Below, piece after piece: positions 23,451 to 51,708 of a DNA stretch of 64,000 nucleotides. A model generated the notes under the pieces. The model searched no databases. It was not told the DNA's origin and worked only from the letters and a program-made list of their open reading frames with translations. The DNA comes from Datisca glomerata (lineage: Eukaryota; Streptophyta; Magnoliopsida; Cucurbitales; Datiscaceae), in contig QANY01013831.1 in NCBI GenBank assembly GCA_003255025.1, forward strand, positions 703,653 through 767,652. The letters run 5' to 3'. Position numbers and translations under genes: made by a program. How positions within the stretch are numbered: the first letter of the stretch is position 1; each line of letters begins with the position of its first letter.

Positions 23451-23619
23451 ATTTTACCAAAGGTGAATTATTTCTCTTTATTTATAATCACTGGGAGTGA
23501 TGACGTCAAATAGTTCCTACAATTGTTAAAGGGTGATTTTTCTAGATGATTGGCCTTTTTAGATTTTTTATTTGATTGTGAGACTTGACTCTTCGGATGA
23601 TCCAGAGTAAGAATCGTCA

Positions 23620-24749
23620 TTGTCTTTCAAAATGAGATGTACTTTGTTTTAGATTAATTTTTTCTCTAATTCAGACTTTGGCTTTGTGACTTTTGATTTA
23701 CCCTTTGAAGATGGTTTGGATAAATTTAGACTGGATAGTTTGATTTGTGGAGCTAGGTAAATGGGCTCATTAATCTTTAATGGAGTTTGGATAAAAGGAT
23801 TTGCTAATCTCATAATGTGATGGACACTTGCAAATTCGTAATTGATGGATGCAATAATTTTCTGGATATTCAACTTATCCCACCATTTAACATAATACTC
23901 TCTGGTAAGGATTTCATTTTCAACTGAGTACTGCCATTTCAAAATCTAATATATTTTGTATTTTATTGGAAAATAAAATATTTGGAGAAATGAGATCTCA
24001 ATTGGTGAGGGCTTGTAAACCTTTAAAAATAAATTAAAATATTATTGTAAATCAATTGGATAAAGTTCTAAGGTAAGACCAAGAATGGACCACCATTTTA
24101 AGAATCAATTTGGAAAATCGAGTTTGAAATTGTTATCAAAATTTAAAAATCAAAAGTGAGAAAAATCATTATTTTGATGCAAGAAAGTCCTGTGTCATGC
24201 ATCAATATAGTCAAAATAATTATATTATCTTTTATTTAAAAGTATTTTGGAACTTGAAGGATGGATTCTCCAATCCTCCATAGTTATGATTCTGAGGATA
24301 GAGAAAGAATGGTAAATGATTCTTTCCTCAGAATTTCTGATTGAGCTAATTTTTATGGATCTTGTTTTTAAGAGAATGTTTCTGTAGAAACTGAGATTTT
24401 TGCTATTGTGTCCAGAGACATAATGGGATTTAGGAATGAAATGAGTTTTGGCAATTTGAGCAGGACCATTTAGATGAGTAAATTGAGGCTCAATATGAAA
24501 GAGATTTTCGCTGGATATTTTTCTGAAATATTAGGATGGTTTTTTGTATTTCGTGATTGGTTGATTGAATGATTGGGCATTAAAATGTTGAGTAATTGGG
24601 TCAAAGGGGTTGATCGGGGTTGATTGGTGATTGGGTCTGAGGGACCCAAGTGTTGTTGATTGAGCTTAGTTAGGAGTAGAAGACTCCTCTTTGATTTGGG
24701 CCTTAAGGGTCAATTGTTGAGCTGAAGACTCTTATATTATCGAACCATT
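23620..24749 (-). pseudogene. Copy A C-terminal polyprotein domain (unknown function), broken
   Basis: Homologous to 37300-38658 in B and 45481-46775 in C. Recognisable pieces: a Gln/Ser/Thr-rich start just after AlkB; a central region with aromatic residues; REYYVKWWDKLNIQKIIASI near 23890; and a Lys/Ser/Pro-rich tail (about 23650-23790). Stops and shifts interrupt it. The position at the end of the genome invites comparison with caulimovirid transactivator/inclusion-body proteins, but I see no diagnostic motif. Confidence 0.6.
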
Positions 24750-25285
24750 CATCATTTTCACATGTTTTCTGAAAGTGATACTGATTCTTTTAGTTAAGGA
24801 CTTTATTGTATGCCTATGACTTTTTTGAAATCCGTCAGGCATGACGAAAAAAGTTCCTTCCAGTATCAACTTTTTTTAATTATTTTATTTGTAAATTCAA
24901 TTATAAATATTGCTTGTCCCAAAAGATTTACAGTTAAAATTTCTCTGTTATCATAACAGATTTCATTATCTTTGTGAAAACCTATTTTTTCACCTTTTTC
25001 ATACCATTGAATTAACAATGCATTGAAGTCATGCTTCAACTTAACATCTTCTAAAATTTTATCCAATTCATTAATCCAGATATTTCTTGGATATTCAAAT
25101 CCATTATGACCATAATTAATGAATGAGGATTTTGAACAAAAAGTGGGTATACTGTCATTGAGCTTTTTTATTTTAAAAGCGTTTTGATTGAGTATTCTAG
25201 GTTCTACCTTTCTGTATTCTAGGATGCCAAAACCCTCAAATTCTTCCATTACAGAATTTTGGAATGATTTTCTACAAAAAATCAT
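24750..25285 (-). pseudogene. Copy A AlkB-type 2OG/Fe(II) dioxygenase domain
   Basis: AlkB enzymes remove alkyl groups from nucleic-acid bases, using Fe(II) and 2-oxoglutarate. An open 139-codon stretch (25285-24866) carries the fold's core: IQWYEKGEKIGFHKDNE with the iron-binding H-x-D at residues 104/106, followed by EILTVNLLGQ. A one-base-class shift in a poly-A run near 24875 then moves the frame. Beyond it lie FFVMPDGFQKSHRH (second iron-binding His) and RISITFR (2OG-binding Arg). All three metal ligands and the Arg survive. It sits after RT/RNase H remnants and before the C-terminal domain. The layout most resembles AlkB domains of flexivirus replicases, in my recollection, rather than plant AlkB homologues. 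Confidence 0.85.
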
Positions 25286-25289
25286 AAGT

Positions 25290-26463
25290 AAGGAAGTCAG
25301 AAATTTAATATATTAGATAAATCAAATATTAAAATAGTTAAAAATAGATTGTTACCTGGCAAAACTCTGTTTGGAAGTAATATCAAAACATGTTTTGTAG
25401 ATTTGTAATAAATCAAAAGAAATTTTTGATTTAATAAAATAAATTGATCAATAGAATAATAAAATTCAAATCCTGAAAATCTAATTGATTGAAACAATTT
25501 GATTCGTTTTGTAGAGATAATTAAACTATTTTGTTTTATTATCTTGACAAATAATTTAAAGTACTTTCAGTATTATTTGACATATTCACTAATGTAAACA
25601 ATCAAATTAAATTTAACCGGTATTGTCTAATAAGAATATTATTAATGTAGAAAATAAAAAATTCAGTGAATTGGTTGAAAGTTTCATTTATCGTACTTGG
25701 AGCATTTCTAGGGTTAAATGGCATTATTTTATAACTACCAAATATAATTTTGTATTTAATAATATTATTTATCTGGTTTTCCAAAATCCAGACTTTATGT
25801 CAATCTTAGAGAATACATCAGTATTTCTAAGTCTTTCGATTAAGTCTCTTTTGTTTGGTATTGGATATTTTATCCATCCCAAAATATTATTAAGAGGCTT
25901 TTAATTAATCACTAGACGATGAACTCCTCGTTTAAAGATTTTAATTTGATATTGAAGAGAAGGAATTTGAAGCTGTTCTTCAATTCTTCTGAGTTTCACT
26001 TCTCCTTGCAGAAAACACAAATATTTTTCTTTATAAGAGAAATTAAATTTATGGATTTGAAAACATAATTTTATTTTAGAGTTTTCAAATTCTCATTTGT
26101 GAGAAAAAGAAAGAAATTTTAATTTTACAGATTCATCCAAGGGATAAGTAATTATCCCATCATACTCTGTGATAAAAAGGATCCAACAGAGAAATGAATG
26201 GTAAAGCTAAAATAATTTTGTCATTCATATTTTTTACTAAGACAAATGATGTTTTGAAACATACATTGACTTGATAAATATGGACTTTGAAAATTTCATA
26301 ATTAATATGTATATGAGTACCATTAGCAAAGGACATAGATTCTCTTGTCTTCTTGAAGTAGTTGGTAAGAACTAGTTCTTCATGCATACAATTTAAATCT
26401 GCTCATGAATCAACAAGAGTTATTGTTGTGAAATTAAAATCTTGAATAATTATTTTGACCATT
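25290..26463 (-). pseudogene. Copy A aspartic protease and deleted reverse transcriptase
   Basis: Protease remnant at 26463-26150: the active-site segment reads LVDS-stop-ADLNC, so the catalytic loop has a nonsense change. RT remnant at about 25960-25300 is missing an N-terminal block of about 85 residues present in B. It has the catalytic box degraded to YINN, carries a short duplication right after it, and is deleted from the thumb region into RNase H, rejoining at a KSTKHVL stretch. The same three lesions occur in copy C. It cannot encode an active polymerase. Confidence 0.8.
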
Positions 26464-26599: not shown

Positions 26600-29500
26600 T
26601 GGTTATTTCTGTGTTAGATCCTTTAACCTTATTGAACTTTTCAAGGGGTTGTGAAATGCTTGCAGTATTGTTATTATTAGACTTAAAAATTTTTTCTTCA
26701 AAATTAATTTCCCAAGACTTTCTAAATATCCTTGCTCTAATTCTGTATTTTCAATTTTACTAATTAGATATAACAAGAGATTTTCTTGTTCTTCATTTTT
26801 ACTTAAGACGTTAATTTTTTGACAATAACTATCCCTACACCTCATTGAGATATTATGAGAATCACTGTCAGAACTTGAAGAGTTAGATTCAGAGGATTCG
26901 GGATATTCAAATTCTCTTAAATCTTTACTATCACTCTCATAGTATTCTATTGACTCTATGATTCTAAACAATTTTTGTTTATCTTTATCAGAGATTTTTA
27001 ATTGATTAATTTTATTTTTAACTTGACAAGTATTTGTAAAATAACCATTCTAGCCATATTTAAAACACTTAAAATTTATTAATAACTTTTTTATTGAATT
27101 TTTTTCTAGAATAATTTTTATTCTTAGAGAAACGTTTGTCAAACTTTCTATTCTTGGAGTAGTATTGGTTAAAAATTTTATGCTTATTTTTGTGGTATTG
27201 TCTCCCATAAGGCTTATGATTCCTTCTAGGGTTTAAATGAGAATTCTTTCTATTTTTCTGGAAAAGAGCAATAGTGGATAAACCATAATGTTCACAAAAA
27301 TTACCTAATTTATATTTTGTAATTTTATTCTATTTTTTAATTTATTTATTGATTTTTATGTCAATGCACATTTTCAGACTTTCCTTATGTATTATTGTAT
27401 CGTGGGTGAGATTATTATAGTCTATATTACCTAGGTTATTACTAAGAACTGTTCTAATTTTGTGTGTGAACAAATTGGATAATTTATTAATGAATCTTTC
27501 TTTCCAAAATAGTTGATTACAATCATCCCCTGTCATTAATCTGGATAAAAATATATTTTATACCAGTGGCAATCACTTAAGGTTGGACACCTAAGATTAG
27601 TGAATTGATCATGGATACACGAAGTAATATTACTTGACGTTCCAATGAAGTGTTCAATTATTTTGTAGAGAAGTATATTAATACATACATTGTTTTCTGA
27701 TTTTCTCCAATAATTGGGGTTCCTTCGACATTGATCTTTACTGATGAAAGGATGGTATTTTTTTATTCTTTTATATTTCCCACCAGGAATGAAGTATTCC
27801 TGTGAATCCTGTGACTAAAAGATTGATTACCTTATTGTGAGGTAAATTATGTGTGGTAATGTAACTGTTAGCTCCCATTGTCATGTGCTGTAATTTGTTG
27901 AGTACTTCCTGCTTAAAAAATCCATAAATATTTCATTCGTATAATTTCTCTGCAGACATAGAAAATTGATTAACTAAAGCATTTTTAGAAATTTGAATAT
28001 TAGGAGGAATAGGCTTTTTAGGCCATTTACTTTCTAATTTATTAATTTCTAAATTTCTAAGTGATTATTCAATATTATTAATGTTTGAAGATTCACTTAT
28101 CATGGATGATTCATAGGTGGATTCTGAACTATGACTTTCTAAATCTGAATTATTGTGTTGATTAATTACCTTCAATTCTTGAGGTATATTATCAATAATC
28201 TTCTCAAACTTAATTTCAGATGATTCTAAACTTTTAAATGATTCTTCAACATTTTTAATATTTGAAAATTCACTTATTGTGGACGACTCATAGGTGGACT
28301 CTGACCTATGGGTTTCTAAATCTGAAATATTGTCTTGATTGATTACTTTTAATTCCTGAAATATTTCATCAATGTGTTTATTAAGGGGAATAATATTTAG
28401 AGTGATTTTTTCTGAAAGATGTATTGAAGGTCTTTTTTCCAAAGTTTCACTAGATTTAAGTTTATGAAGATCATCAACCTTATTCTTAATTTTGTCTAAT
28501 TATTTTTCTATTAGAATTAGAATTTGATTGGTGTAATTGAGTTGTTCAACTACTTTTTTATTTGGTTCTTATTCTTTTAAAATTTTGAATGGAGAAGCAG
28601 TGATTAAAATTTTTTTATGGTTCATGTCCTTAACAGATGATGATTTATTAATTTTTAACCTTCAACTTTGTTAACGTTTACAGATTCATTAATTTTGAAA
28701 GATTCATAGGTTGATTCTAACCTATGACTTTTTGAATTTGAACTACTGTCTTTCAATTCTTGAAGTTTATCATTAGTAAGTTTTTCAGATTCTGAACAAT
28801 TATTTTGGTTATCAATCCTACCAGAATAAGATGAGTCATTCATTTTTAAATTTTTTTAATGTTTCTTCAATATTTGAAGATTCATTAATTGTGGAAGATT
28901 CATAGGTGGATTCTAATATATGAATATCTAATTCAGAGATATTATCATGGTCAATAATTTTGACAGATGATTTAATTTTTAAATATTTAGATGATTCCTA
29001 AATATTATCTGAAGATTCATCGATTGTGAATGGCTCATAAGTAGATTATATCTTATGGATATTTGATTCTGAGACATTGTCTCTTAAAATTTTAAATTTT
29101 TTAAAGTATTTTTTTATCAAGAGTTTTCTTATGATGAATTGGGAAGGGTTCAATGAATTTCTTTTTAGGTTGACAATTTTTATGATTAATTAGGATTTTT
29201 CAGGCATTGGATGACTGAAAGATATTACGGTGGAGTCTTCCTTGACTTATTTATATTTTGAAATTATTTGAATATTTTTCTCATATATATCCTTGATATA
29301 ATCAAGGAAAAACATATCAACTCTAAATTCTTGCATGAATGCTTTCCATTCAGCTAGTATGATTATTCTTTGGTCTATATTATATTTTTCTCTGAAACTA
29401 TTACGGCTATCAAGATTGGCTGGGTCATCATTGTGTTGGGTTAGACCTTCCCAATTTGGTTTATATTCTTGGTTTAGGTTATCTCGATTCAAATTTTTAG

Positions 29501-30412: not shown

Positions 30413-30430
30413 GGTTTGACTCTAATACCA
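30413..30430 (-). other. Copy A tRNA-Met primer-binding site
   Basis: The minus strand reads TGGTATTAGAGTCAAACC, two transitions away from the canonical TGGTATCAGAGCC. Copy A's homology begins within a few bases of it. The leader (30012-30412) follows in the minus direction; its short ORF is broken by a stop. Confidence 0.8.
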
Positions 30431-30434
30431 AAAG

Positions 30435-30948
30435 TCTCTCCAGACATAAAGACCGAGAAAACAATGATCAAAGATCTTTGAAATTTGTGGTTTTGTAATA
30501 ATTGTACTAGTTGTTGGAAAATAAGGCAACTATTTATGCTTTTTTACTATTTTTAGTCAAAAGAAAATAAAAGTACACATGTAAAATGTTTTTACTTTTG
30601 TAGAATAGAATAGTTCAGATAATTAATGGGTTCCTGGTAAACTCCAATTTCCTTGGCTATAAATAGGGTAGTCCTCTCCCATTTATTCCGCAGAATTTGT
30701 TTTCAACTCTTAACTATTTGATAGTAGAATTGGTTTTTGAGAACAAAGCTTTCTTCCTCCCTATTATGTAAATCTTTCTTCTTCTTTCAACGTTAAATAG
30801 TGAACGGGAGCACAATTTAATATATATATATATATATATAACTTGTGTAAGTCTTGAATCTTACCTTCTTAATGTAATTTAACTATTTTTCTTGCACCCC
30901 TAATACCTAGTATTTAAAAACTTTAAATTATACGCAATTCCGCAGTTT
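30435..30948 (+). promoter_or_regulatory. Copy B pregenomic promoter region
   Basis: Viral intergenic sequence with GGCTATAAATAGGG (TATA box 30658-30665), a CT-rich transcribed leader, TAAATAGTGAACGGGAGC and an expanded TA run (about 30822-30840). It is homologous to the 3' non-coding regions of A and C and to the truncated 3' end of B itself (38890-39085), so B has partial terminal redundancy. It abuts copy A's primer site head-to-head. Confidence 0.75.
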
Positions 30949-30961
30949 TGGTATCAGAGCC
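30949..30961 (+). other. Copy B tRNA-Met primer-binding site
   Basis: A perfect TGGTATCAGAGCC, complementary to the 3' end of initiator tRNA-Met, where minus-strand DNA synthesis starts in caulimovirids. Confidence 0.88.
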
Positions 30962-31010: not shown

Positions 31011-31340
31011 TTGTTCTTGACCACCTTTATGGATGGTTATTGCTCTTGTCGTTTATCAATTTCTTACCTGAATAATTATTTTTATTTAATCACACTCTTC
31101 GCCCAAGTGACTGGTTATTTTTATATTTGTTTATCAGAAGCTGATATATCAGCTTCTATTTGGTTAGTTTCAGGCATCTTAGTAAGAGCTCTTAGAGACA
31201 TAAATACCAAGGGTAGGGTGGTTGTAGAGGTAGGTTGGAGAAGAGTTAACCTAATAAGAGGTTGTAGAAGTCACAACAGATTAGTAATCAAAATACAATA
31301 TGAAATTTTCAATCATAAGAATAATTTAGTTATTTTTTAG
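31011..31340 (+). CDS. Copy B short leader ORF, 109 codons, unknown function
   Basis: This frame between primer site and movement protein is uninterrupted, unlike the rest of B. It stops two bases before the movement-protein ATG (31343). The product has a hydrophobic, Tyr/Leu/Cys-rich N-terminal half and a basic C-terminal half (KGRVVVEVGWRRVNL then a Cys/Arg/Asn stretch). The same frame is open in copy C at 40890-41255 with most residues conserved, but interrupted in A and D. Caulimovirid leaders usually carry short ORFs, and whether this one is translated is unknown. The true start may be an internal ATG. Confidence 0.45.
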   Translation: MFLTTFMDGYCSCRLSISYLNNYFYLITLFAQVTGYFYICLSEADISASIWLVSGILVRALRDINTKGRVVVEVGWRRVNLIRGCRSHNRLVIKIQYEIFNHKNNLVIF

Positions 31341-31342
31341 CA

Positions 31343-32447
31343 ATGAGTAGATTATTTAGAAGTAATTATTCTAGTAGTAACAGGTCTACAATAACTTCAT
31401 TTCCAGACATAATAAATGAAAAACATTTAGAATACTCAGCAGATGATCAAGTAGATCATAAGGTATGGAATATACCCAAAATCCCTAATACAAATATTTA
31501 CAAATAACATGGTTTGTTACTTCTTTCAACCCTCAGCATCATGTAAAAATAATTGAAAAAATATATGCTCTAGGGAAAGAAAATGAAACTTGTCAATTCC
31601 TTTCCCTCAATGCAATAAAACATCACATTGAAGAAGGATATAATTTCTTCATTTTGGTTTAGACCAGATTGAAGCTAAACCACTCACAAGGAAATGCCTA
31701 AATACCTCTGTCTTGTTAGCCTTGCGTGATGCAAGATTTACTAATTTTAACGATAGTATTTTAGAATTAATTGAATCCTCATTTTTGCAACCAACTATTT
31801 TTTTCATCGCAAAAATCTTTTGCGACCAAAGATCCGTTGTCGCGAAAGGTCTAACGTGACGAAGTTCATTTTTCACCACGAACGACTTTCACTGACGATG
31901 TTCACGATGAACGTATGTTCATCGCGTTAGACTTTTAGCGACGAGATTTTAAGGCTTTAGTGACAAAAGTTTGTTCGTTAAAAATCCTGTTTCTTGTAGT
32001 GAGTATTTTAAGATTAATTGAATCCTCACTTTGTAATGGTCCAATATATTTTGATTGTTTTCCAGATTTGTATGTTAGTCTAACAGACCCCCCCCCCCCA
32101 TATTCTAAAATCTTTAACTTTGAATATTAAAACTAGTAGTTACCAAGTCCTAGAAGGTACCCAACCCCTAACTTTATTTTTAGAATTCAATACAAAGTCA
32201 CAAACACTAATATGAATTTTCAAGCCATCAATAGGAGTCCCAAAAATTAAACCCTATTGATTCAATCTTGCCAAAGTAATGCAAATATTAAACTCTCTAA
32301 AACAATTAGGTGGTATGATATTACTTTACCCTCAAATTGGCTTTTAACCCATGAAAGCCAACCTAGTTCAATACAACGACCAATTGAAGATGTAGCTTAC
32401 ATCCAACAGTACATGGATGGTACTGTTAAACTTATTTCCAATTTTTG
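31343..32447 (+). pseudogene. Copy B movement protein (30K superfamily), disrupted
   Basis: The ATG at 31343 starts a Ser-rich N-terminus (MSRLFRSN) and the frame reads the movement protein shared by C and D. It carries many stops and a 220-bp CACTA-derived insertion at 31782-32001. The C-terminal part (32220-32447) ends with the conserved IQQYMDGTVKL stretch. Movement proteins of this family form or modify plasmodesmata for cell-to-cell spread. A C-tract expanded to 12 bases (32088-32099) also shifts the frame. Confidence 0.8.
31755..32028 (-). mobile_element. CACTA-end fragment with 27-bp flanking duplication
   Basis: Insert 31782-32001 ends TTTCTTGTAGTG (CACTA terminus on the minus strand). 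It has CG-rich subterminal motifs such as GGTCTAACGTGACGAAG. The flanking viral sequence AGTATTTTARATTAATTG...CCTCA is present on both sides (31755-31781 and 32002-32028), while copies C and D have it once. A duplication of about 27 bp is far longer than the 3-bp target duplication of CACTA elements, and the left terminus is missing. Confidence 0.7.
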
Positions 32448-35370
32448 AGTTCTAATCCTTAAATTATGGAGTATAGCCAGTCTAGTACCCCTAGGAATTC
32501 TTTTTCTGGATCATCTATCAATAATGATCAAGATCTTAGTATTCAACAATTAGAACAAGAATTAAAAATTAAAGAATTAAAAGTTTAAAACTTAAAGGAA
32601 TAACTACAAATTTCTAAGTTAGTCAGCCAGTCTTTGATAATAAGTCTGAACAATCTGACGAAGCTGAAGCACCCACAGAATTATATTTTCAAGGAACTTT
32701 ATCTCATGTTAATCCTCAACTCTTAGTTCTAAATTTAGACACCTTGAGCTAAGAATACAAACAAGATTGAGAAGGTCTAACCCAACACAATAATGACCTA
32801 GTCAATCTCAATAGACGTAATAAGTTCAAAGATTAATATAATATGGATAAAAAAATCATACTTGTTTAATGGAAGGCGTTCATGCAAGAATTTCGAGTTG
32901 ACATATTTTTCCTTGATTATATCGAGGATATTTATGAGAAAAATATTAATGTAATTTTCAAATCTAAATGGGTCAAAGAAGACTCCAGTGTACTGGCTGC
33001 TAGTCATCCACCACCTGAAAAAATTATAATTAGCCATAAAAATTCTTTAATCACTGCTTCTCATTTTAAGACTTCAAAGGAAGAAGAATAAAAAAAGTAG
33101 TTGAACAACTCAATTACACCAATCAAAGCCTAATCACAATAGGAAAATAATTAGATAAAATTGAAAATAAGGTTGATGATCTTCATGAACTTAAATCTAA
33201 TTAATCTGTGGAAGATAAACCCTTAATAAATTTTCAGATAAAGCCATTTTGAATACTATCCCTCTTAATAAAAAATTAATAATATGCTTTAAGAATTAAA
33301 GAATAAATCAATTAAACCATTACCATTTTCCTCTGTTAAGATTATTAACCAAGATAGTAGATCAGAATTTGAAATTAGGCATGAAAAATTTCTTGATAAA
33401 CTACTTAAAGAATTGAAAATTGATTATCAAGAATCTACCGATGAATCTTTCACAATTAATGAATCTTCAAACATTGATAATATTTAAGAATCATTTAAAA
33501 ATTTAGAATCATTTGAAATTGAATCTGAGAAAATTATTGATAATATACCTCAAGAATTGAAGGTAATTAATCAACACAATATTTCAGATTCAGAAAGCCA
33601 TAGGTCGGAATCCACCTATAAATCTTCGGCAATTAATGAATCTTCAAATATTAATAATATTGAAGATACATTCAAGAATTTAGGAATTAATAAATTAGAA
33701 ATGAAATGGCTTAAAAAGCCTATTCCTCCTGACATTCAAATTACATAAAATTCTTTAGTTAATCAATTTTCTGTTTCTGCAGAAAAATTGTACGAATGTG
33801 ACATTGATGGATTTTGCGAGCTGGAAGTTCTTAATAAATTGCAGCACATGGCGATGGTAGCCAACAGCTACATCACCACACACAATTTACTTCACAATGA
33901 GGTAATCAATTTTTTAGTCACATGATTCATAGGAATGCTCCTTGTGGGAAAAACATCTCACAGAAGAATCCAAAAATACCATTTTTTTTAGTAGTGAAGA
34001 TCGATGGTGAAGGAACCCAAATTATTGGAGAGGATCAGGAAACAACACCCGATGCCATCAATACACTCATATATACAATAATTGAACATTTCATTGGAAT
34101 GCCAAGTAATATTACTCTATGTGTCCATGATCAATTGACCAATCTTAGGTGTCTAACCCTAAGTGATTTTGACTGGTACAAAATTATATTTTTATCCAAA
34201 GTAATGACAAGGGATGGTAGCAATCAACCATTTTAAAAAGAGAATTTCATTAATGCCTTACCCAATTAGTTTGCCCATAAAATTAGGACAGTCATTAGTA
34301 ATGACCTAGGAAACATAGATTATGATAGTCTTACCTACGATACAATAATTACTACAATATAGAAGGAAAGTTTAAGAATGGGTATAGATATGAAAATCAA
34401 TAAATAAATTAAAAAAGAAAATAAAACTGTCAAATATAAATAGGGCCCCTTCTCAGAAAAATAGGAATAATTCTCATTTAAGCCCTAGAAGGTCCCACAA
34501 GTCTAATAGGAGATAATACCACAAAAATAAGCATAAATTTTTTTACCAATACTTTCCAAAGAATAAAAATGTTGACAAACGTTTCTCTAAGAATAAAAAT
34601 TATTCTTGAAGGAAAGTCAATAAAAATTTATTGATAAAAGTAAACTTAAGTGTTTTAAATGTGATTAGAATGAACATTTTTCTAACACTTGTCAAGTAAA
34701 AAATAAAATTAATCAATTAAAAATCTCTGATGAAAATAAACAAGAAGTGTTTAGAATCATAGAGTCAATAGAATATTATGAGAGTAGTAATGAAGATTTA
34801 AAAGAATTTGAATAATTTGAATCCTCTGAATATAACTTTTCAAGTTCTTACAGTGATTCTCCTAACATCTCTATAGGATGTAGGGATAGTTGTTGTAAAA
34901 AAATAAATGTTTTAAATAAAAACTGAAGCACAAGAACATCTCTTGTTAGATTTAATTACCAAAATTAAAAATCCAGAATTAAAACAATAATACTTAGAAA
35001 GACTTAGAAAAATAATTCAGAAGAAAGAAAATACTAAGTCTAACAATAACAATACTACAAGCCTTTCGCAAACCTTTGAAAAAATCAATAAGGTTGAAGG
35101 AAAGGAAAACGAAGTTACCTTATAGGAACTTCAAAAATAAAATAAAAGTATTAAATTTTAAATAAAAGAATTAAAAGATTCAAACACAGAAATAAAAGAA
35201 TAATTAAATCTTTTAAAAATATAGAGTTTAATTAAAAATCATGAATCTAGTGAATTAGGAGAACCTAATAAATTTTCAATTTCTGATAATGAGGTAGAAG
35301 AAACTACTGTCAATAATCAAGATGATGATAATTTCACTCAAATTCTTAATCATATCAAAATCAAGGAATG
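32448..35370 (+). pseudogene. Copy B capsid (CP) region, broken
   Basis: Longest capsid region of the cluster. Segments: linker with a Glu/Leu coiled-coil-like stretch (32520-32620); FMQEFRVDIFFLDYIEDIYE (about 32882); a Lys/Glu/Ser-rich middle with acidic repeats (33180-33750); an uncharacterised middle domain (33780-34240); a basic Arg/Lys/Asn tract (34430-34650); and a CCHC knuckle near 34650-34700 read CFKCD-stop-NEHFSNTC, interrupted by one nonsense change at a former Gln. An acidic Ser-rich tail (34740-34900) precedes the protease. Many stops are CAA/CAG-to-TAA/TAG type. Confidence 0.8.
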
Positions 35371-35377
35371 ACACATA

Positions 35378-37290
35378 ATGGTCAGAATAATTATTCAAGA
35401 TTTTGATTTCTCAACAATTTCTCTTGTTGATTCAAAGACGGATTTGAATTGTATGCAGGAAGGGCTCGTTCCAATCAAGTGCTTCAAGAAGACAAAAAAA
35501 TATTTGTCCTCTACCAATGATACTCGAATGCATATCAGTTACGAAATCCCCAAAGTTCATATTTGCCAAGATAATGTATGTTTCAAAACATCATTTGTCT
35601 TAGTAAAAAATATGACGGATAAAATCATTCTATGTTTATCATCTATTTTTCTGTTGTATCCTTTTACCACAAAGTATGATGAGAAAATTACTTATATGAA
35701 GGATAAACCTGTTAAATTCACGTTTCTTTCTTTCTCTCACAATGAAAAATTGAAAACTTTAAAAGAAAAATCTATTTCTAAAACCATAAATCTAATTTCT
35801 TGTAAAGAAAAACAATTGTAATTTTAACGGGATGAATTAAAATTCAAAAGAATTGAAGAACAACTCCAGAAACCTGCTCTTAAAAAATAAATTAAAAATC
35901 TTCGAACAAAAAATCTATAAAGAATTATGTTTTGATATTCCTAATGCTTTCTGGCACAGGAAGCAACATACTGTCAATCTGCCTTATATTAAGAGATTTG
36001 ATGAGAAAAATATCCCTACTAAGGCACGAGCAAGTCAAATGAATTCTGAAATGCTCGAATTCTACACAAAGGAAATTGTAGAACTTCTCAATAAGAATAG
36101 TATTAGAAGGAGGAAATCTCATTGGTCTTGCTCGGCCTTTTATGTCTAGAAGGCCAGTGAAATTGAATGAGGAGTTCCTCATTTAGTAATTAATTATAAT
36201 CCCCTTAATAATATTTTAGAATGGATCAGATATTCAATACTAAACAAAAGGGACTTGATAAATAGACTTAGAGATGTGGTGGTATTCTCTAAGTTTGATA
36301 TGAAATCTGGATTCTAATAAATCCAGATAAATGAAAATGATAAATATAAAACTGCATTTGTAACTTCATTTGGCCATTACGAGTAGAATGTAATGCTTTT
36401 TGGTCTTATGAATGCTCCCAGTGAATTTCAATTTCAAAATATAATGAATGAAATTTTTAATCAATTTACTGATTTCTCAATTGTTTACACTGATGATGTT
36501 CTCATTTTTTCTAACTCATAGAACAACATTAGAGACATCTTGAATCATTTACTAGGATAATAAATCAAAATGGTTTAGTTATCTTTGCGAGTAAAATTAG
36601 ATTATTTCAATCCAAAGTTAGATTTCTAGGATTTGAAATACATCATTCAATAATTAAATCAATTAATCGGGTAATACTATTTGTGGATAAATTCCCTGAT
36701 GAAATCCTAGACAAAACACAATTACAAAGACTTCTAGGATCTTTAAATTATATATATGACTTTTATGACAAATTAAAAATTGATTGCAAGCCCCTATTTG
36801 AAAGGCTAAAAAAGAATCCTCCTCATTGGACATTTGTCCATACCAATCTAAAAAAAAGAATTAAAACGCATGTTAATACACTCTCTTATCTTGGCATTCC
36901 CGCAAATAATTTTTTCAAAATTATCTAGACTGATGTTTCTGAAATAGGATATAGAGGTATCTTGTTACAGAAAATCTCTCCAGAGTCGCCTGAACAGATT
37001 GTTAGGTTTACATCTGGAACATGGTCTCAATCCCAAGTTAATTATAGTACAATTAAAAAGGAAATATTATATGTTGTCCTATGTATACAAAAATTGCAGG
37101 ATGACTTGTTGAATCAAAAATTCTTTTTAAAAATTGATTGTAAATCTATGAAACATGTTTTGGAGAAAGATGTTAGAAATATTGCTTCGAAACAAATTTT
37201 TGCTCGATGACATTCCATACTTAATACTTTTTATTTTAACATTGAATTATTAAATGCATTAATAATTCAGTTCCTAATTTTTTGACCCGT
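35378..37290 (+). pseudogene. Copy B protease-reverse transcriptase-RNase H, broken
   Basis: Protease (35378-35700): active-site region reads LVDSKTDLNC, with the Asp kept and the flexible Gly lost. RT (35850-36900) has a complete N-terminal half (VNLPYIKRFDEKNIPTKARA, then SHWSCSAFYV) and a catalytic box YTDD near 36490-36500; stops replace a Trp and several Gln. RNase H (36900-37210) retains the TDVSE, KKEIL and IDCKS segments bearing the catalytic Asp/Glu/Asp. It is the only RNase H of the cluster preserved end to end. Numerous nonsense changes make it non-functional. Confidence 0.88.
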
Positions 37291-37299
37291 GAATTTTTG

Positions 37300-38658
37300 T
37301 AGAGACAACAAGATGGGGTCAATGCCTCAGGCCTCGAAGAAAATAGTTAAAGGGGAGTCATCGACTCCACAATTGACCCTTAAGGCCCAATTCAAAGAAA
37401 ATCCTTTTGCCCCAAGAAATACTCAAATGACAATACTCGAGTCTATCAGGCCTAACTACCAATCTGCACTGGTAAACTAATTTGACCCATTTACAGTCTC
37501 TAAACCATTCGATCCATAATTGGTGAACCAACCAGTCACAAAATACAAAAGGTCATCCCCATATTATAGGAAGACCCTAATAAGAATCTCTTTTACGTTG
37601 AACCCCTATTTGCTAATTTAAAAAATCTCATTAAAATAGCAAAATTTCATTTTCTTCCAGACTTCCATTTTGTCCCTGGTCACAAGGACAAAAATCACAG
37701 CTTCTATAGAGACATTCTCTTATGAACAAAATCAGTAAACATCAGTCCAATAACCAGTACAGAAGGAAAGATTCTCTATCATTCCTTCTAGATCCTCAAA
37801 ATAATAACTTCGGAGGAACGGAAAATCCATTCTTCAGGGTTAAAACCCCTTTAAATAAAAAATAATACAATTATTTTGACTATATTGATGCTTGACAAAT
37901 AATTTTCTTGCATTAAAATAGTGAACTTTCTCATTCTTGATTTTTGAACATTGACAAAAATTTCAAGGTCAATTTCCCAAAATGGTTTTTAAGATGGTTG
38001 TCTATCCATGGCCCTGTCTTGGAAATATTCCCTATTGAACTTCAACAAAATTTCAATTTATTTTTAAAATTATTCAAACCCTCAACAATTGAGGATTCTT
38101 TGCCACCAATAATTTATTTCATAAACAAATTTAAAATCCCATGGATCCTTAAATGGCAATATTCACTAGACAAGACTACGTCAAATGGTGGGACAAATTT
38201 AGTACTCTGAAAATCTCTACCGTCATCAATGATGAATTTGCAAATATCCACCCACAATTGAAATAATCAAACCACCTTCAATGGCCCCATTAAAAATTAA
38301 GGAGCCAGATAGCCAAAACCCACAAATAAACCAACCCAAATCACCCAATTCTTCCCGAGAATCAAAGCCTAAATAAAAACCTTCTCCAAAAGGAAAGGCC
38401 AAGGCTACTAAATCCAAATCAAAATAGGAGTTAATACAAAAAATTCTCATTCTTCTTGAAGATAATACTGACTCTGACTCTGAATCACCAGTAGAGTCAA
38501 ATCATCTAGTTAAAAATGATAAGAGACAAACGTTCAAAGCTACCTCTCAACAATTGAAGGGAAAATCACACGTTCACGTTCTTCCACAGTGGGCTTATGA
38601 TCCCTTTCAGGATTCATAAGACCCATTCGATAATATCAACCTCAGTGATGACGAATGA
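37300..38658 (+). pseudogene. Copy B C-terminal polyprotein domain, broken
   Basis: Begins right after RNase H, with no AlkB between, at MGSMPQASKKIVKGESSTPQ. It runs through a His/Phe-rich segment (HNFYRDI-like, about 37690), a Trp-rich segment (WFLRWLSIHGPVLEIFPIEL, about 37980) and a YVKWWDKF-like stretch (38180). A Lys/Ser/Pro-rich linker follows, then an acidic C-terminus ending INLSDDE and a stop at 38656. Function unknown; its terminal position recalls transactivator-type proteins. Confidence 0.6.
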
Positions 38659-39092
38659 AAAAGAATAATTTACCTTTGGTAAAATGCCAATGTTTGAATA
38701 CTTCAAGGAATCAAATAACTTTGAAGATGACACCAGAGCACAATGCAAATGTCATAATAATCTTCGAAGACAAGCAATAGTCATAAATGACTTTCCAAAG
38801 ACAGAAGTCCAAGATAGCAATTATCAAGGATCAACAATAAAGGCTACACCAGAATAAAGCAACGATCAAGACAAAAAATCGAAGATAACAATTATCAAGG
38901 AATCTTTGTAATTTGATGTTTTTTATAATAATTGTACTAGTTGTCGAATAATTGGGCAACTATTTACGCTTTTTACTATTTCTAGTCAAAAGTAAAAATA
39001 TAAAATATTTTTATTTTTATAGAATAAAATAGTTCAAGTAAGTTATGGGTTCCCAATGAACTTCACTTTACTTGGCTATAAATAGTCATCCA
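38659..39092 (+). other. Copy B 3' non-coding region, truncated after the TATA box
   Basis: Viral intergenic sequence homologous to 30435-30670. It contains GGCTATAAATAG (39074-39085) and ends a few bases later at the junction with fragment D, where GGAT is shared by both partners (microhomology). Confidence 0.7.
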
Positions 39093-39094
39093 TC

Positions 39095-40780
39095 CATATT
39101 ATATGAATCTCTGAACCTATTACGTTTATTAAGATTGGCTGGGTCATTATTGTGTTGGGCTAGACCTTCCCAATCTGGTTTGTATTCTTCGCTCAAGGTA
39201 CCTAAATTTAGAACTAAGAGTTGAAAATTAACATGAGGTAAAGTTCCTTGAAAATTTGATTTTGTGGGTGTTTCAGCTTCGTCAGATTGTCCTGACTTAT
39301 TATCGAAGACTCGCTGACTAACTTGAGAATTTATAGTTATTCCTTTAAGTCTATAATTTTTAATTTTTTAATTCTTATTCTAATTTTTGAATCCTAAGAT
39401 CTTGATCATTATTGAGAGATGATTCAGAAAAGAAATTTCTAAGGGTACTAGACTGGCAATACTCCCTAATTTGAGGATTAGAACTCGAAGATTGGAAATT
39501 AATTTTAACAGTATCATCCATGTATTGTTGGATGTAATCTACATCTTCAATTGGCCGTTGTATTGGAGTAGGTTGTCTTTCATTGGTTAAAAGCCAATTT
39601 GAAGGTAAAGTAATAATATCAGACCACCTACTTGTTTTAGAGACTCTAATATTTGCATTACCTTGCCTAGATTGAATCAATATGGTTTGATTTTTGAGAC
39701 TCCTATTGATGACTTAAAAATTCATATTGGTTTTTGTGACTTTGTAATGAATTCTAAAAATTAAAGCTAAGGGTTGGGTACCTTCTAGAACTTGGTAACA
39801 ACTAGTTTTAATATTCAAAGTTAAAGATTTTAGAGTATAAGGGTCTGTTAGACTAACAGAAAAATATGAAAAATAATCAAAATGTATTAGACCATTACAA
39901 AGTAAGGATTCAATTAATCCTAAAATATTATCGTTAAAATTAGTAAATCTTGCATCACGCAAGGCTAACAAGACAGAGGTATTTAGGCCTCTCCTTGTGA
40001 GTGGTTTAACTCCAAACTAGAATAAACCAAAATGAAGGAAATTTTATCCTTCTTCAATATGATGTTTTCTTGCTTTGGAGTAAAATAATTGACAAGTTTC
40101 ATGCTCTTTCCTAAGAGCATATATATTTTTAATTATTTTTACATAATGCTGAGGCTTGAAAGAAGCAACAAACCATGTTGATTTGTAAATATTTTTATTT
40201 GGGATTTTGGGTATATTACATACTCTATGATCTACTTGATGATCTACTATGTAATCTAAATGTTCTTCATTTATTATGTCCGGAATTGAAGTTATTGTAG
40301 ACCTATTATTACTAGAAGAATTACTTCTAAATAATTTGCTCATTGCTAAAAAATAACTAAATTATTCTTATGATTGAAAATTTCATACTGTATTTTGATT
40401 ATTAATCTGTTGTGACTTCTACAACCTCCTATTAGATTATTTCTTCTCCAACCTGCCTCTACAACCACCCTACTCTTAGGATTTACCTCTCTAAGAGGTC
40501 TTACTGAGGTGCCTAAAGCTAAACAAATAGAAGTTGATATGTCAGCTTCTAATAAAACAGGTTCATAGATTAGATAAACAAATATTATAGAAAAATAATC
40601 AATTATAAAGATAACCAGCCACTTGGACGGAGAGTGAGATTAAATAAAAGCAATGATTCAGGTAAGCAATTGATAAACAACAAGAGCAATAACAAGCCAT
40701 AAAAGCGGTGAAGAACAATATTTATGCAGATTAATGAAGTAAATAGTAGATACACTCGACAAGGTTTGGCTCTGATATCA
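39095..40780 (-). pseudogene. Fragment D: leader, movement protein and start of capsid
   Basis: Reads on the minus strand from a primer site (40780-40768) through the leader, whose short ORF is interrupted, into the movement protein (ATG at 40343). The first 100 codons are open (40343-40044). After several shifts the C-terminal third is open again (39680-39375). It crosses from MP into the capsid linker without a stop, showing that MP and CP share one polyprotein frame. The fragment ends inside the capsid N-terminal region at 39095. Confidence 0.82.
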
Positions 40781-40905: not shown

Positions 40906-41255
40906 TTATGGCTGATTGCTCTTGTTGTTTATCAGTTGCTTACCTGAATAATTACTTTTATTTAATCTCACTCTCCATCCAAGTGGCTGGTTATCTTTTT
41001 AAAAGATTATTTCTAATATTTGTTTATCTAATCTATGAATCTATTTTATCAGAGGTTGATGTATCAGCTTCTATTTGGTTAGTTTCAAGCACCTCAATAA
41101 GACTTCTTAGAGACGTAAATCCTAAGGGTAGGGTGGTTGTAGAGGGAGGTTGGAGAAGAGTGAACCTAATAGGAGGTTGTAGAAGTCACAACAGACTAAT
41201 AATCAAACTACAGTATGGAGTTTTCAATCATAAGGATAATTTAATTATTTTTTAG
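40890..41255 (+). CDS. Copy C short leader ORF, 121 codons, unknown function
   Basis: Open frame at the same place as 31011-31340 in copy B, ending two bases before the movement-protein ATG (41258). The N-terminal half is hydrophobic (CCLSVAYLNNYFYLISLSIQ) with an 8-12 residue insertion relative to B. The C-terminal half is basic (KGRVVVEGGWRRVNLIGGC). Together with B it is the only viral frame free of stops. It may be a real viral short protein, or a conserved RNA element that happens to stay open. Confidence 0.45.
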   Translation: MFFTAFMADCSCCLSVAYLNNYFYLISLSIQVAGYLFKRLFLIFVYLIYESILSEVDVSASIWLVSSTSIRLLRDVNPKGRVVVEGGWRRVNLIGGCRSHNRLIIKLQYGVFNHKDNLIIF

Positions 41256-41257
41256 CA

Positions 41258-42104
41258 ATGAGTAGATTATTTAGAAGTAATTCTTCTAGTAGTAATATGT
41301 CTACAATAACTTCAATTCTATACATAATAAATGAAGAACATTTATAATACCCAGCAGATGATCAAGTAGATCATAGGGTATGAAAGATACCCAAAATCTC
41401 TAATAAAAATATTTATAAATCAACATGCTCTATTGCTTCTTTCAAGCCTCTGCATCATGTAAAAATAATTAAAAAATATATGCTCTTGGGAAAGAGCATG
41501 AAACTTGTCAATTACTTTCCTCCAATGCAATAAAACATCACATTGAAGAATGATACAATTTCCTCACTTTGGTTTAGTCCAGATTGGAGTTAAACCACTC
41601 ACAAGGAAATGCCTAAATACATCTATCTTGTTAGCCTTGCGTGATACAAGATTTACTAATTTTAACGATAGTATTTTATGATTAATTGAATCCTCACTTT
41701 GTAATGGTCCAATACATTTTGATTGTTTTTTAGATTTTTCTGTTAGTATAACAGACCCCCATATTCTAAAATTTTTAACTTTGAATATTAAAACTAGTGG
41801 TTACCAAGTCTTAGAAGGTATCCAACCCCTAGCGTTAATTTTTAGAATTCATTACAAAGTCACAAAAACTAATAAGAATTTCCAAGCCATCAATAGGAGT
41901 CCCAAAAATCAAACCTTATCGATTCAATCTAGCCAAAGTAATGCAAATATACGAGTCTCTAAAATAATTAGGTGGTCTCATATTACTTTACCTTCCAATT
42001 GGCTTTCAACCAATGAAAGCCAACCTACTCTAATACAACAACCAATTGAAGATGTAGATTACATCCAACAGCATATGGATGGTACTATTAGAATTAATTT
42101 CTAA
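41258..42104 (+). pseudogene. Copy C movement protein, broken
   Basis: Ser-rich start MSRLFRSNSSSSN, then a 30K-type movement protein as in D, with several stops and shifts. The C-terminal third (41781-42104) is open and includes FRIHYKVTKTNKNFQ and the terminal IQQHMDGTIRINF. No transposon insertion interrupts it, so it gives the empty-site reference for the CACTA fragment in copy B. Confidence 0.8.
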
Positions 42105-43790
42105 TCTTCGAGTTCTAATCCTCAAATTAGGGAGTATAGCCAGTCTAGTACTCCTAGAAATTTCTTTTCTAGATCATCTGTCAATAATGATCAAGATCTT
42201 AGGATTCAACAATTAGAATAAGAATTAACAAATTAAAAAATTAAAAATTTAAGACTTAAAGGAATAATTATAAATTTCCAAGTTAGTCAGCCAATTTTTG
42301 ATAATAAGTCTGAATAATTTGACGAAGATGAAGCACCCACAGAATGAGATTTCTAAAGAACCTTACCTCCTGATAATCCTCAACTCTTAATTCTAAATTT
42401 AGGCACCTTGAGCCAAGAATACAAACCAAATTGGGAAGGTCTAGCCCAACACAATAATGATCTAGCCAATCTTAATAGACGTAATACGTTCAAAGATTCA
42501 TATAATATGGATAAAAAAGCATATTTACTGAATGGAAGGCATTCATGCAAGAATTTAGAGTTGACATATTTTTCCTTGATTATATCGAGATTATTTATGA
42601 AAAGAATATTAAAGTAATTTCCAAATCTAAATGGGTCAAAGAAGACTTCAATGTGGTGTCTGCTAGTCCCATGATCAATTGACCAATCTTACGTGTCCAA
42701 CTCTAAGTGATTTCAACTGATACAAAAATATATTTTTGTCAAGAGTAATGACAAGGGATGATAGCAATCAACCCTTTTGGAAAGGAAAATTCATGAATGG
42801 CTTACCAAATTTATGTGCCCATAAAATTAGGACAATCCTTAATAATGACCTAGAAAACATAATTACAACAATACAAAAGAAATATCTTAGAATGTGTATA
42901 GATATGAAAATTAATAAACAAATTAAAAAAAGCTACCAATATGTTTACCCACTATTGCTCCTTCCTAGAAAATAATAAAAACCCTCATTTAAGCCCTAGA
43001 AGTACCCACAAGCCTTATAAGATATATATTTCAATAAGAAAATATAATAAAAAATCTATTGAAAAAGGTAAAATTAAATGTTTTCAATGTGGTCAGAATG
43101 GTCATTTTTTAAACATTTGTTAGGTTAAAAATAAAACTAATCAAATAAAAATCTCTGAAGAAGATAAACATGAATTATTTAAAATATTAAAAACAATATA
43201 TTATTACGAAAGCAGTGATGAAGATTTAGGAGAATTTGATTCCAATGAATCCTCTGAATATAACTCTTCATTTTCTAAGAATGATTCTCCTAACATCTCT
43301 ATGGGGTGCAAGGATAGTTGTTGTCAAAAAATAAATGTTTTAAATAAAAATGAAGAACGAGAAAACCTCTTGTGAGATTTAATTAGCAAAATTAAAAATC
43401 CAGAATTAAAATAAGGATATCTTGAAAGACTTAGAAATGTAATTCTAAAAAAAATACTAAATCTAATAATAACAATACTGCAAGGCTTTTGTAAACCCTT
43501 GAAAAATTCAATTAGGTTAAAGGAAAGGATAAAAAAGTTACTCTTCAGAAACTTTAAAAAGAAATTAAAAATATTAAATTTGAAATAAAAAATTAAAAAA
43601 TTCAAACACAAAAATAAAAGAAGAATTAAACATTTTAAAAATAGAAAATTTAATTAAGAATCATGAACTAGGAGAATCTAGTAAATTCTCAATTTCTAAT
43701 AATGAGGTTGAAGAACATATTTTCAACAGTCAAGATAATGATAATTTCATCCAAGTCCTTAAATATATCAAAATCAATAAATGGCGCATA
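42105..43790 (+). pseudogene. Copy C capsid region with large internal deletion
   Basis: Begins as in B (EYKPNWEGLAQHNND), but near 42663 it jumps to sequence that in B lies about 1.1 kb further on. This removes the acidic repeats and part of the middle domain; the joint lies in a CATGATCAATTGACC stretch. The CCHC zinc knuckle is intact here (KCFQCGQNGHFLNIC, about 43078-43122) and is followed directly by a stop. Acidic tail and coiled-coil-like linker follow (43140-43780). Confidence 0.78.
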
Positions 43791-43794
43791 AAAA

Positions 43795-44835
43795 TCAGAA
43801 TAATTATTCAAGATTTTGATATCACAGCAATGGCTCTTGTTGATTCACGAGTATATTTAAATTGTATGTAGTAAAGACTAGTTCCAACCAATGGTACTCG
43901 GATGCATATCAATTATGAAATCTCCAAAGTTTATATTTTTCAAGACAATGTATGTTTCAAAACATCGTTTGCCTTAGTGAAAAATATGACGGATAAAATC
44001 ATTTTGGGTTTACTATTCATTATTTTGTTGTATCATTTTACCACAGATCATGATGGGATAATTACTTATCACATGGATGAAACTTTTAAATTCAAATTAC
44101 TTTCTTTTTCACTTAATGGGAAATTGAAAACATTAAAATAAAATTATGTTTTTAAATCCATAAATTTAATTTCTTGTAAAGAAAGACCATTGTGTTTTTT
44201 GCAAGATAAAATAAAATTCAAAAGAATTGAAGAATAACTTCAAGATACTACTCTTCAAAATCAAATTAAAATCTTTGAACGAGGAGTTCCTCGTTTAGAA
44301 ATTAATCACAAGCCCTTTAACAATATTTTAGAATGGATAAGATATCCAATATCAAACAAAATACACTTAATCAACAGACTTGGAGATACTTTTGTATTAT
44401 CTAAAATTGACATAAAATCTAGATTTTGGAAAAACCAGATAAATAAAATTGATGAATACAAAATTGCATTTAGTAGTTATAAATGGAAAATAATGTCATT
44501 TGCTCCAAGTACAATTTTCAACCAATTCACGGATTTCTTAATTGTCTGCATTCTTATTAAACAATACTGGTTAAATTTCTCAATTGTTTGCATAAGTAAT
44601 ATTATTATTTTTCTAAATATGTTAAACAATACTGAAAACACTTTAAATTGTTTGTCAAGATAATAAAATAAAATAGTTTAGTTATATTTGCAAAAAGAAT
44701 CAAATTGTTTCAATCCAAGATTAGATTTTTAGAATTTGAAAATTTATTATATCATTACTAAGGCAATTAATCAAATCATACAAATTTTTTTATTAAATAA
44801 AAAAATTAATTAATTACAAATTTACAAAACATGTT
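43795..44835 (+). pseudogene. Copy C protease and deleted reverse transcriptase
   Basis: Protease remnant at 43800-44140 (active-site region degraded; ILG-L segment and hydrophobic core still readable). RT remnant at 44280-44835. It starts at RGVPRLEINHKPFNN directly after the pre-RT spacer, so the N-terminal RT block is deleted exactly as in A. The YxDD box is lost within a local duplication (TTCTTATTAAACAATACTGG), and a deletion carries the frame to AAACATGTTTTGA in the RNase H region. Same lesion set as A. Confidence 0.8.
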
Positions 44836-44944: not shown

Positions 44945-45480
44945 TCGTATAAATATTTGTTGGAAATCAATCAAAGATTCTTCAATAGAAGAATTCGAGG
45001 AATCTGACCTACTAGAATATGGAAAGATAGAACTCAGAATAGTCAATCAAAATTCTTTCATAATAAAAAAGTTCAATGGCAGGGCAACCGTTTTTTGTTA
45101 AAAAATCTCATCCATTAATTATGGTCATAATGGATTTGAATATCCAAGAAATGACTGAATTAATGAATTAGATAAAATTTTGGAAGAAATTGAATTGGGG
45201 CATGATTTCAATGCAGCCTTAATTCAATGGTATGAGAAAAGTGGAAAAATTGGTTTTCACAAAGATAACGAAATTTGTTATGATAACATAGAAATTTTAA
45301 CTGTGAACATTTTGGGACAAGTAGTTTTTAAACTCAAATTTTCAAATAAAACAATCAAAGAAATTGTTTATACTAGAAGGAACTTTCTTCGTCATGCCTG
45401 ACGGATTTTAAAAAGGTCATCGACATGTAGTAGAGTCCTTAACTAAAAGAATCAGTATCACTTTTAGAAATCATGTAAGA
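44945..45480 (+). pseudogene. Copy C AlkB-type 2OG/Fe(II) dioxygenase domain
   Basis: Second copy of the domain at 24750-25285. The best open stretch is 45180-45401. IQWYEKSGKIGFHKDNE contains the iron-binding His (45258-45260) and Asp (45264-45266), followed by EILTVNILGQVVF. After a frame change the text continues FFVMPDGF-stop-KGHRHVV (second His near 45418-45426) and RISITFR (Arg pair, about 45448-45468). Two further stops lie upstream. All predicted iron ligands and the 2OG Arg are kept, although the neighbouring polymerase is wrecked. Similarity to the A copy is roughly 70% by eye over the HxD region. Confidence 0.85.
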
Positions 45481-46775
45481 ATGATGAATGGTTCAATCAT
45501 AGAAGAGTCTTTGACTCAACAATTGGTCCTTAAGGCCCAAATCAACGAGGAGTCTTCTACTCCTAACCAAGCCCAATCAATAATATTTGGGTCCATCAGA
45601 CCTAATTACCAATCAACCATGGTCAACAAATTTGACCCAATTACTCAACCTTTTAATGCCCAATCATTCAATCATTCAATTACGAAACACAAAAAATCAT
45701 CCTAATATTTCACAAAAATATCCAGCGAAAATCTCTTTCATATTGAACCTCCATTTGCTCATTTGAATGATCCTGCTCAAATCTTCAAAGCCTATTTCAT
45801 TCTTAAATTCTGTTATATCCCTTGACACAATAGCAAAAATCACAATTTCTACAGAGACATTATCTTAGAAACAGAATCCATAAATATTAGCCCAATCAGA
45901 AATTCTGAGAAAAGAATCATTTACCATTCTTTCTCTATCCTCGGAATCATAACTATGGTGGATTGGAGAATCCATCCTTCAAGTTCCAAAACTTTTTTAA
46001 TAAAAAATAATATAATTATTTTGACTACATTGATGCATGACACAATATTTTCTTGCATCAAAATAGTGATTATTCTCACTTTTGATTTTTAAATTTTGAT
46101 AACAATCTCAAAATTGATTTTTCAGATTGGTTCTTAAAATGGTGGTCCATTCATGGTCTTACCTTAGAACTTTTTTCAATTGATTTACAAAAATGTTTTA
46201 ATTTGTTTTTAAAGGTATACAAGCCCTCTCCAATTGAGGTTTTGTTTCTCCAAATATTTTGTTTTTCAATAAAATATAAAATACCTTTAATTTTAAAATG
46301 ACAATACTAGGTTGAAAATGGAATACTCACTAGAGAGTGTTATATTATATTGTTGGAAAAGTTGAATACCTAGAAAATTATTGCATCCATTAATTATGAA
46401 TTTGCAAGTGTCAATCCCATTATGAGGATAGCAAATCCTTTTAACCAAGCTCCATTAAAAATTAATAAGCTCATTAACCTAACTTCACAAATAAAACTAT
46501 CAAGTTCAAATTCTTCCATAGCCAAATTAAAACTTGAATCCAAATCCACTTCACACGGTAAATCAAAAGCCACAAAGCCAAAGTCCAAATTGAAGCAAAA
46601 ATTATTGCAAAGCTTGCTTCTCCTCCTTGACAACAATACTGATTCTGACTCTAAACAATCAGTAGAGTCGAATCATCCAATAAAAACAAAAAGTTAATCA
46701 TCCAAGACTCTCCTCAGCCATTGAAGGACCCATCTAAATTATCGACCTCAGTGACAATGTGTGAAGAAAAATAAT
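45481..46775 (+). pseudogene. Copy C C-terminal polyprotein domain, broken
   Basis: Continues straight from AlkB at MMNGSIIEESLTQQLVLKAQ, with an open Gln/Ser/Asn-rich stretch to 45705. Shifted pieces matching B follow: a HNFYRDIILET-like segment, a WFLKWWSIHG-like segment near 46130, and an open Lys/Ser-rich stretch 46422-46697. It ends near DLSDNV and a stop at about 46773. Function unknown. Confidence 0.6.
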
Positions 46776-51621: not shown

Positions 51622-51708
51622 GGAGAGATGGCCGAGTGGTTGAAGGCGTAGCATTGGAACTGCTATGTAGGCTTTTGTTTACTGAGGGTTCGAATCTCTC
51701 TCATTCCG
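51622..51708 (+). tRNA. trnS-GGA: Plastid-derived trnS-GGA (mutated copy)
   Basis: 87 bases beginning GGAGAGATGGCCGAGTGGTT with the anticodon loop TTGGAAC (GGA anticodon), a long variable arm and GGGTTCGAATC in the T arm. The 3' acceptor part reads CTCTCATTCCG and has changes that weaken pairing with the 5' GGAGAGA. Probably silent in the nucleus. Confidence 0.85.

Follow-up and report, generated by a model that had tools for sequence, protein, structure and literature searches.

A predicted AlkB-type dioxygenase domain in a reverse-transcriptase-deficient form of endogenous caulimovirid in Datisca glomerata

The described systems closest to the elements considered here fall on either side of the divide between reverse-transcribing elements and RNA viruses. 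First, bipartite genomes have been proposed for the florendoviruses (Geering et al. 2014, PMC4241990; reviewed in PMC10377300), whose component B is reported to be without the reverse transcriptase (RT) and the N-terminal part of the RNase H domain RH1, to keep the movement protein (MP), coat protein (CP) and protease (AP), and to bear an extension like that of open reading frame (ORF) 2; insertion in TA repeats is also reported (PMC4241990). Second, Ty3/Gypsy elements with an AlkB ORF have been described in Phalaenopsis (Alvarado-Marchena et al. 2022, PMC9289625). Third, AlkB domains are found in plant RNA viruses (Bratlie and Drablos 2005, PMC544882), including potyviruses (PMC9452765). Here we analyse a 64,000-nucleotide stretch of the genome of Datisca glomerata (contig QANY01013831.1, positions 703,653 to 767,652; hereafter the window), in which two endogenous caulimovirid copies, A and B, hold a broken AlkB domain, and a third, copy C, has RT and RNase H and no AlkB. 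No description of AlkB in a caulimovirid appeared among the full-text literature matches listed, a coverage that leaves out most subscription papers and bioRxiv.

In copy A, an earlier sequence-only reading had placed the AlkB motifs FHKD, ILTVN, FFVMPDGFQKSHRH and RISITFR between RT/RNase H remnants and the viral C-terminal domain; all of these are present in that arrangement, on the minus strand, the upstream remnant being degenerate and the downstream C-terminal region conserved. The domain starts near position 25249 and changes frame near 24870: FHKD and ILTVN lie within an open stretch at 25312-24867, and FFVMPDGFQKSHRH and RISITFR within a second one at 24875-24733, which is in a different frame and overlaps the first. 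Since its motifs are split over two frames, the AlkB of copy A is broken; the iron- and 2-oxoglutarate (2OG)-binding residues are retained. Against the Pfam AlkB profiles, its first piece falls under the cut-off of PF13532 (E 1.8e-5, 25.4 bits against 31.2) and its second passes that of PF03171 (E 5.6e-5, 23.8 bits against 23). Both cut-offs are passed by L011, an unbroken copy from another part of the genome (PF13532, 40.4 bits, 4.7e-10; PF03171, 33.3 bits), PF03171 having been tried on two unbroken copies, L011 and L045. The NCBIfam scan gave no match above cut-off. The homologous domain of copy B is likewise broken and shares 67% and 81% protein identity with that of copy A over two pieces; among its three pieces scanned, one matches PF13532 under the cut-off (2.7e-5) and the other two match none of the AlkB models. 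The AlkB domain of copy A is genuine, though broken, and the HxD motif, the second H and the RxxxxxR motif, with the Pfam scores of L011 above cut-off, identify the domain shared by these copies as a predicted AlkB-type 2OG-Fe(II) dioxygenase.

A genome search with PF13532 (150 of 427 candidates scored) returned 129 matches, several being host ALKBH exons. We fetched 60 of these match rows; setting aside one host gene and one duplicate left 58 loci, which with copies A and B make 60 AlkB copies, a lower bound and a sample whose members are not mutually independent. AlkB DNA was matched in 60 of 60, regular expressions found FHKD in 54 and the R..TFR pattern in 42, and in 18 of the 58 fetched copies no stop interrupts AlkB from its first methionine to beyond the last arginine motif. 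A chance motif match was rejected, as the domain recurs in 60/60 copies with the same neighbours, and a host ALKBH gene with viral neighbours was rejected on the viral flanks of the compared copies. That copies A and B are broken would agree with an unrelated AlkB gene, or a fragment of an RNA virus, having inserted by chance next to a pararetrovirus, and no other support for this was found; it is already refuted by the recurrence of AlkB with viral flanks throughout the set of 60, which leaves its probability negligible.

Selection was assessed by pairwise ratios of nonsynonymous to synonymous substitution rates (dN/dS) on L011-anchored alignments, using 59 of the 60 AlkB sequences over 162 codons (one with less than 80% coverage was dropped); the RT remnant was represented by 43 sequences and ORF2 by 34. 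For AlkB, the ratio falls from 0.62 in shallow pairs to 0.29 in deep pairs, a drop with depth that was also seen in a separate comparison and is expected where the replicating lineage is held under constraint and its integrated copies decay. The incremental dN/dS, which reflects older evolution, is 0.24 (95% codon bootstrap 0.17-0.34), against 0.58 (0.43-0.81) and 0.59 (0.40-0.85) in the wrong frames. The RT remnant with the protease tail gives 0.46 (0.36-0.60), a figure that includes protease residues and thus is no evidence of constraint on the dead RT itself; ORF2 gives 0.38 (0.29-0.47), overlapping the AlkB range. These values support the view that AlkB evolved under constraint, subject to a bias in how the sample was selected, to which we return below. 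Among the binding residues, the first H is kept in 59/59, the D in 57/59, the second H in 59/59, the R in 57/59 and the last R in 51/59. Their mean conservation is 0.959 against 0.835 for the other codons, a level reached by 152 of 10,000 random five-residue sets. This better average retention argues against a non-catalytic module kept for structure, e.g., for RNA binding, in an ORF2-like protein; the in-frame fusion of AlkB with the ORF2-like region and the retention of the last arginine in just 51 of 59 sequences would suit such a module, which we regard as quite improbable.

By their gene content the elements are caulimovirid: they have MP, a coat domain with a zinc knuckle, primer-site-like sequences and a protease, and no integrase profile was found among the pieces scanned. 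The placement inside an endogenous pararetrovirus made by the sequence-only reading is upheld. In L058 the order runs from a primer-site-like sequence through MP (PF01107, 2.4e-15), CP (PF22909 Caulimovir_coat_dom, 1.2e-12; PF24925; zinc knuckle PF00098), the protease region, the RT remnant and AlkB to the ORF2-like region. The caulimovirus coat domain was matched in both L058 and L057 and the MP profile in L058, with homologous regions in the window. The protease active site is DSGA in 6 of 7 readable copies and NSGA in the remaining one (L014), 3 of the 10 inspected being unreadable. Copy C has an exact tRNA-Met primer site with a TATA-like box upstream, and copy A a homologous one with two mismatches (Table 1). 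By count alone such sites are weak evidence: the window has 6 against 2.7 expected, and 6 were reached in 5 of 100 shuffles. The one in L058 (at 572, 2 mismatches) is not significant by count, one site being reached in 61 of 200 shuffles, and L057 has none within 2 mismatches. A second exact tRNA-Met site in the window (4269-4280, minus strand) lies outside the caulimovirid copies and perhaps belongs to another retroelement.

The combination of RT and RNase H that characterizes the Caulimoviridae is found in the RT form only. An LTR (long terminal repeat) retrotransposon was rejected on finding MP and the caulimovirus coat domain and no integrase profile in the pieces scanned. The elements resemble those of Phalaenopsis as reverse-transcribing plant elements that acquired an AlkB domain; however, the orchid elements (PMC9289625) are LTR retrotransposons with an ALKBH5/9/10-like domain, whereas those of Datisca, with their MP, CP and primer-site sequence, are caulimovirid, gave no integrase profile in the pieces scanned and resemble the presumed ALKBH9/10-like exons of the host only at chance level.

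The AlkB domain occupies the point at which the RNase H frame would normally give way to ORF2. In the RT form (copy C, L057), the RNase H frame stops shortly before the ORF2 start; in the AlkB copies, the AlkB frame opens at this place and continues into sequence common with ORF2. Several AlkB copies have a reading frame open for up to 902 codons, from the protease tail across the RT remnant and AlkB into the ORF2-like region. Just before AlkB, at about residues 305-335 of the L011 ORF, there is a hydrophobic stretch that is the former RNase H end read in another frame; it is seen in many AlkB copies and may be chance.

Comparison of the copies revealed two forms of the element in the same genome. 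In the first, regions for MP, CP and protease persist, and the RT catalytic motif is gone, as is the segment from the RT thumb to the N-terminal part of RNase H. A 442-base piece covering this segment was matched in 0 of the 60 AlkB copies, and the pattern [YFC][VTIAM]DD was absent from all 60 within up to 1000 bases upstream of AlkB (less where the locus is shorter), the alignable YxDD position reading, e.g., YINN, CINK or YIDN. The RNase H end is still matched in 39/60 and the ORF2-like region in 59/60. The second form has RT and RNase H. A search with the same 442-base segment found at least 40 such copies at 84% identity or more (the best 40 scored of 1150 candidates). We read ten RT/RNase H copies, picked by score or adjacency: 8 of those 40, copy C included, and two beside AlkB copies. 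Eight of the ten have a readable YxDD, and AlkB is absent from the RNase H/ORF2 junction in all ten. The two forms can be neighbours, an RT-form copy lying about 2-4.5 kb from an AlkB copy in L057 and in L054/L079, and in one case they are joined: in L087 (minus strand, about 2527-2384), an AlkB-form fragment that breaks off inside AlkB, keeping its N-terminal part, directly abuts an RT-form copy, suggesting that the two forms recombined or integrated together. The ORF2 of L058 is 76.6% identical to that of the RT-form partner in L057. At about 9229-9260 of L057, this partner apparently ends inside its primer-site sequence, followed by an AT repeat.

Judged by gene content and not by an RT tree, the layout of the AlkB form resembles that of florendovirus component B plus AlkB. 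As in the florendovirus component, MP, CP and protease are kept, RT and the N-terminal RNase H are lost, an ORF2-like C-terminal extension is present, compound insertions with an RT-bearing component occur, and there are many endogenous copies. The Datisca form differs in still having a degenerate RT remnant and in its AlkB domain, which is not mentioned for component B in the part of PMC4241990 seen. The intergenic region of component B is given there as more than 90% identical to that of component A; here, the promoter pieces of L058 and of the RT partner in L057 are 90.6% identical over 138 bases, and L058 is 78-82% identical to the window copies. Alternatively, the AlkB elements might be defective, non-autonomous, satellite-like passengers on full viruses, with AlkB serving the passenger and not a two-part genome. 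The loss of RT in 60/60 AlkB copies and the promoter piece common to both forms sit well with this, as do the MP and CP regions of copy C, with which the RT form need not rely on the AlkB form for these functions. Against it count the retained MP, CP and protease regions, the constraint on AlkB, and the same losses in the published component B in several hosts (PMC4241990); we consider passengers unlikely.

As to the source of the domain, the sequence-only reading had proposed, beyond an AlkB in a caulimovirid, its capture from an RNA virus; the former stands, and the latter is tentatively favoured. The first 24 rows of the Foldseek viral list include an ampelovirus, a Foveavirus (31% over 86 columns) and Fig latent virus 1, none of them significant, and this presence of RNA viruses weighs to some degree against capture from a host ALKBH2-like transcript. 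So does PF03171, which matches none of five host exons, scanned exon by exon, in contrast to the viral domain above cut-off. On the other side, the best host alignment is to contig C906, which we take to be an ALKBH2-like gene of the same superfamily, with two exon-like matches at 25% and 34% identity; exons on C760 and C888, presumably ALKBH9/10-like, show only chance-level similarity to the viral AlkB. Host capture is a possibility that we entertain with some doubt. Three scans of viral contigs gave no lead: one with the AlkB protein, one with a DNA pattern in the style of flexiviruses, which had 8 matches on contigs of 30-500 kb, and one with an RT piece. A scan of genome contigs gave none either. 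The likeness to plant RNA virus AlkB domains lies in the HxD, H and RxxxxxR residues, the Pfam 2OG-FeII_Oxy match and the incorporation into a larger viral protein; those viral domains are reported from polyproteins of positive-strand RNA viruses (PMC544882 and PMC9452765), whereas here the domain lies beside ORF2 of a reverse-transcribing DNA virus.

We think it probable that copies A and B are the decayed chromosomal remains of a caulimovirid form that was deficient in RT and had AlkB at the head of its ORF2-like region, an RT-form partner and an RNA demethylase function. Under this proposal, the two forms would be components of one virus system, as suggested for the bipartite florendoviruses, and the RT/RNase H of the partner would copy the RNA of the AlkB form in trans, for which the promoter-like sequence common to both is suggestive. 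The AlkB protein, alone or within the ORF2-like protein, may strip methyl groups (candidate marks are m6A, m1A and m3C) from viral (pregenomic) RNA, either to shield it from methylation-based host control or to repair templates of reverse transcription. RNA demethylation of viral RNA, in an element replicated in trans by the RT form, is the most likely function on the available sequence comparisons. The domain might, with less confidence, have arrived from an RNA virus via template switching at the RNase H/ORF2 boundary. Only tentatively would we go further, to a split-genome pararetrovirus with one component for an RNA-virus-derived demethylase and the other for reverse transcription, in which AlkB replaced the lost polymerase functions as the reason for keeping the component.

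Several observations count against the proposed two-form system with a demethylase. First, choosing the loci by their score against the AlkB profile gives preference to conserved domains and biases the constraint result upward. Second, the AlphaFold model is poor (predicted local distance difference test, pLDDT, 46.6), the Foldseek fold searches gave no significant match, and PDB sequence searches gave none. Third, most RT-form copies read carry stops or gaps and so provide no evidence of a working partner today, and the similarity of the L058 promoter to the window copies shows no clear difference between the forms. Fourth, the protease active site departs from DSGA in copy B (DSRV) and copy C (DSKT), as in L014. 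Finally, the similarity to the host ALKBH2-like gene leaves the source of AlkB open.

If the proposal holds, RNA methylation would be a barrier strong enough for reverse-transcribing plant viruses to capture an eraser, as certain RNA viruses of plants and one lineage of orchid retrotransposons did. AlkB would then extend to the Caulimoviridae, a family without a report among the literature matches listed, and component B-like genomes, so far defined by losses, would gain a positive function. It also raises questions testable on sequences, namely complementation in bipartite caulimovirids and gene exchange between RNA viruses and pararetroviruses.

Table 1. Caulimovirid features of copies A, B and C in the window (positions counted from its first nucleotide).
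Feature	Positions	Strand	Remarks
Copy A, AlkB domain	24733..25249	-	motifs, Pfam pieces, homologous copies
Copy A, RT remnant end joined to C-terminal RNase H remnant	25298..25566	-	RT thumb to N-terminal RNase H absent
Copy A, RT remnant	25603..25900	-	YxDD motif absent, reads YINN
Copy A, protease region	26161..26402	-	
Copy A, coat protein region	26601..28058	-	homologous to L058 CP (PF22909/PF00098)
Copy A, ORF2-like C-terminal region	23613..24530	-	downstream of AlkB
Copy A, tRNA-Met primer-binding-site-like sequence	30419..30430	-	2 mismatches, homologous position
Copy B, AlkB domain	44958..45501	+	broken
Copy B, RT remnant	44238..44740	+	no YxDD; N-terminal RNase H part absent
Copy B, movement protein region	41255..41843	+	
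Copy B, coat protein region	42670..43545	+	
Copy B, ORF2-like region	45505..46673	+	
Copy C, reverse transcriptase region	36171..36928	+	several open stretches, with YTDD
Copy C, RNase H	36929..37210	+	PF17917, 1.9e-14; no AlkB after it
Copy C, ORF2 region	37286..38502	+	starts directly after RNase H end
Copy C, movement protein region	31340..32182	+	
Copy C, coat protein region	33671..35122	+	
Copy C, tRNA-Met primer-binding-site sequence	30949..30960	+	exact
Intergenic/promoter-like region	30442..30932	+	with TATAAATAG; upstream of copy C primer site

Further features of the window lie beside or outside these copies. A fourth, partial caulimovirid copy, with the movement protein and the next region, is inverted beside copy C (39092-40346, minus strand). 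Self-comparison showed tandem repeat DNA at 48573-49486 and 1-927. A group I intron (RF00028, 7.2e-22; 53264-53741, minus strand), which we take to be the trnL intron, and a tRNA (51622-51708, plus strand) probably mark a fragment of plastid DNA within the nuclear genome.
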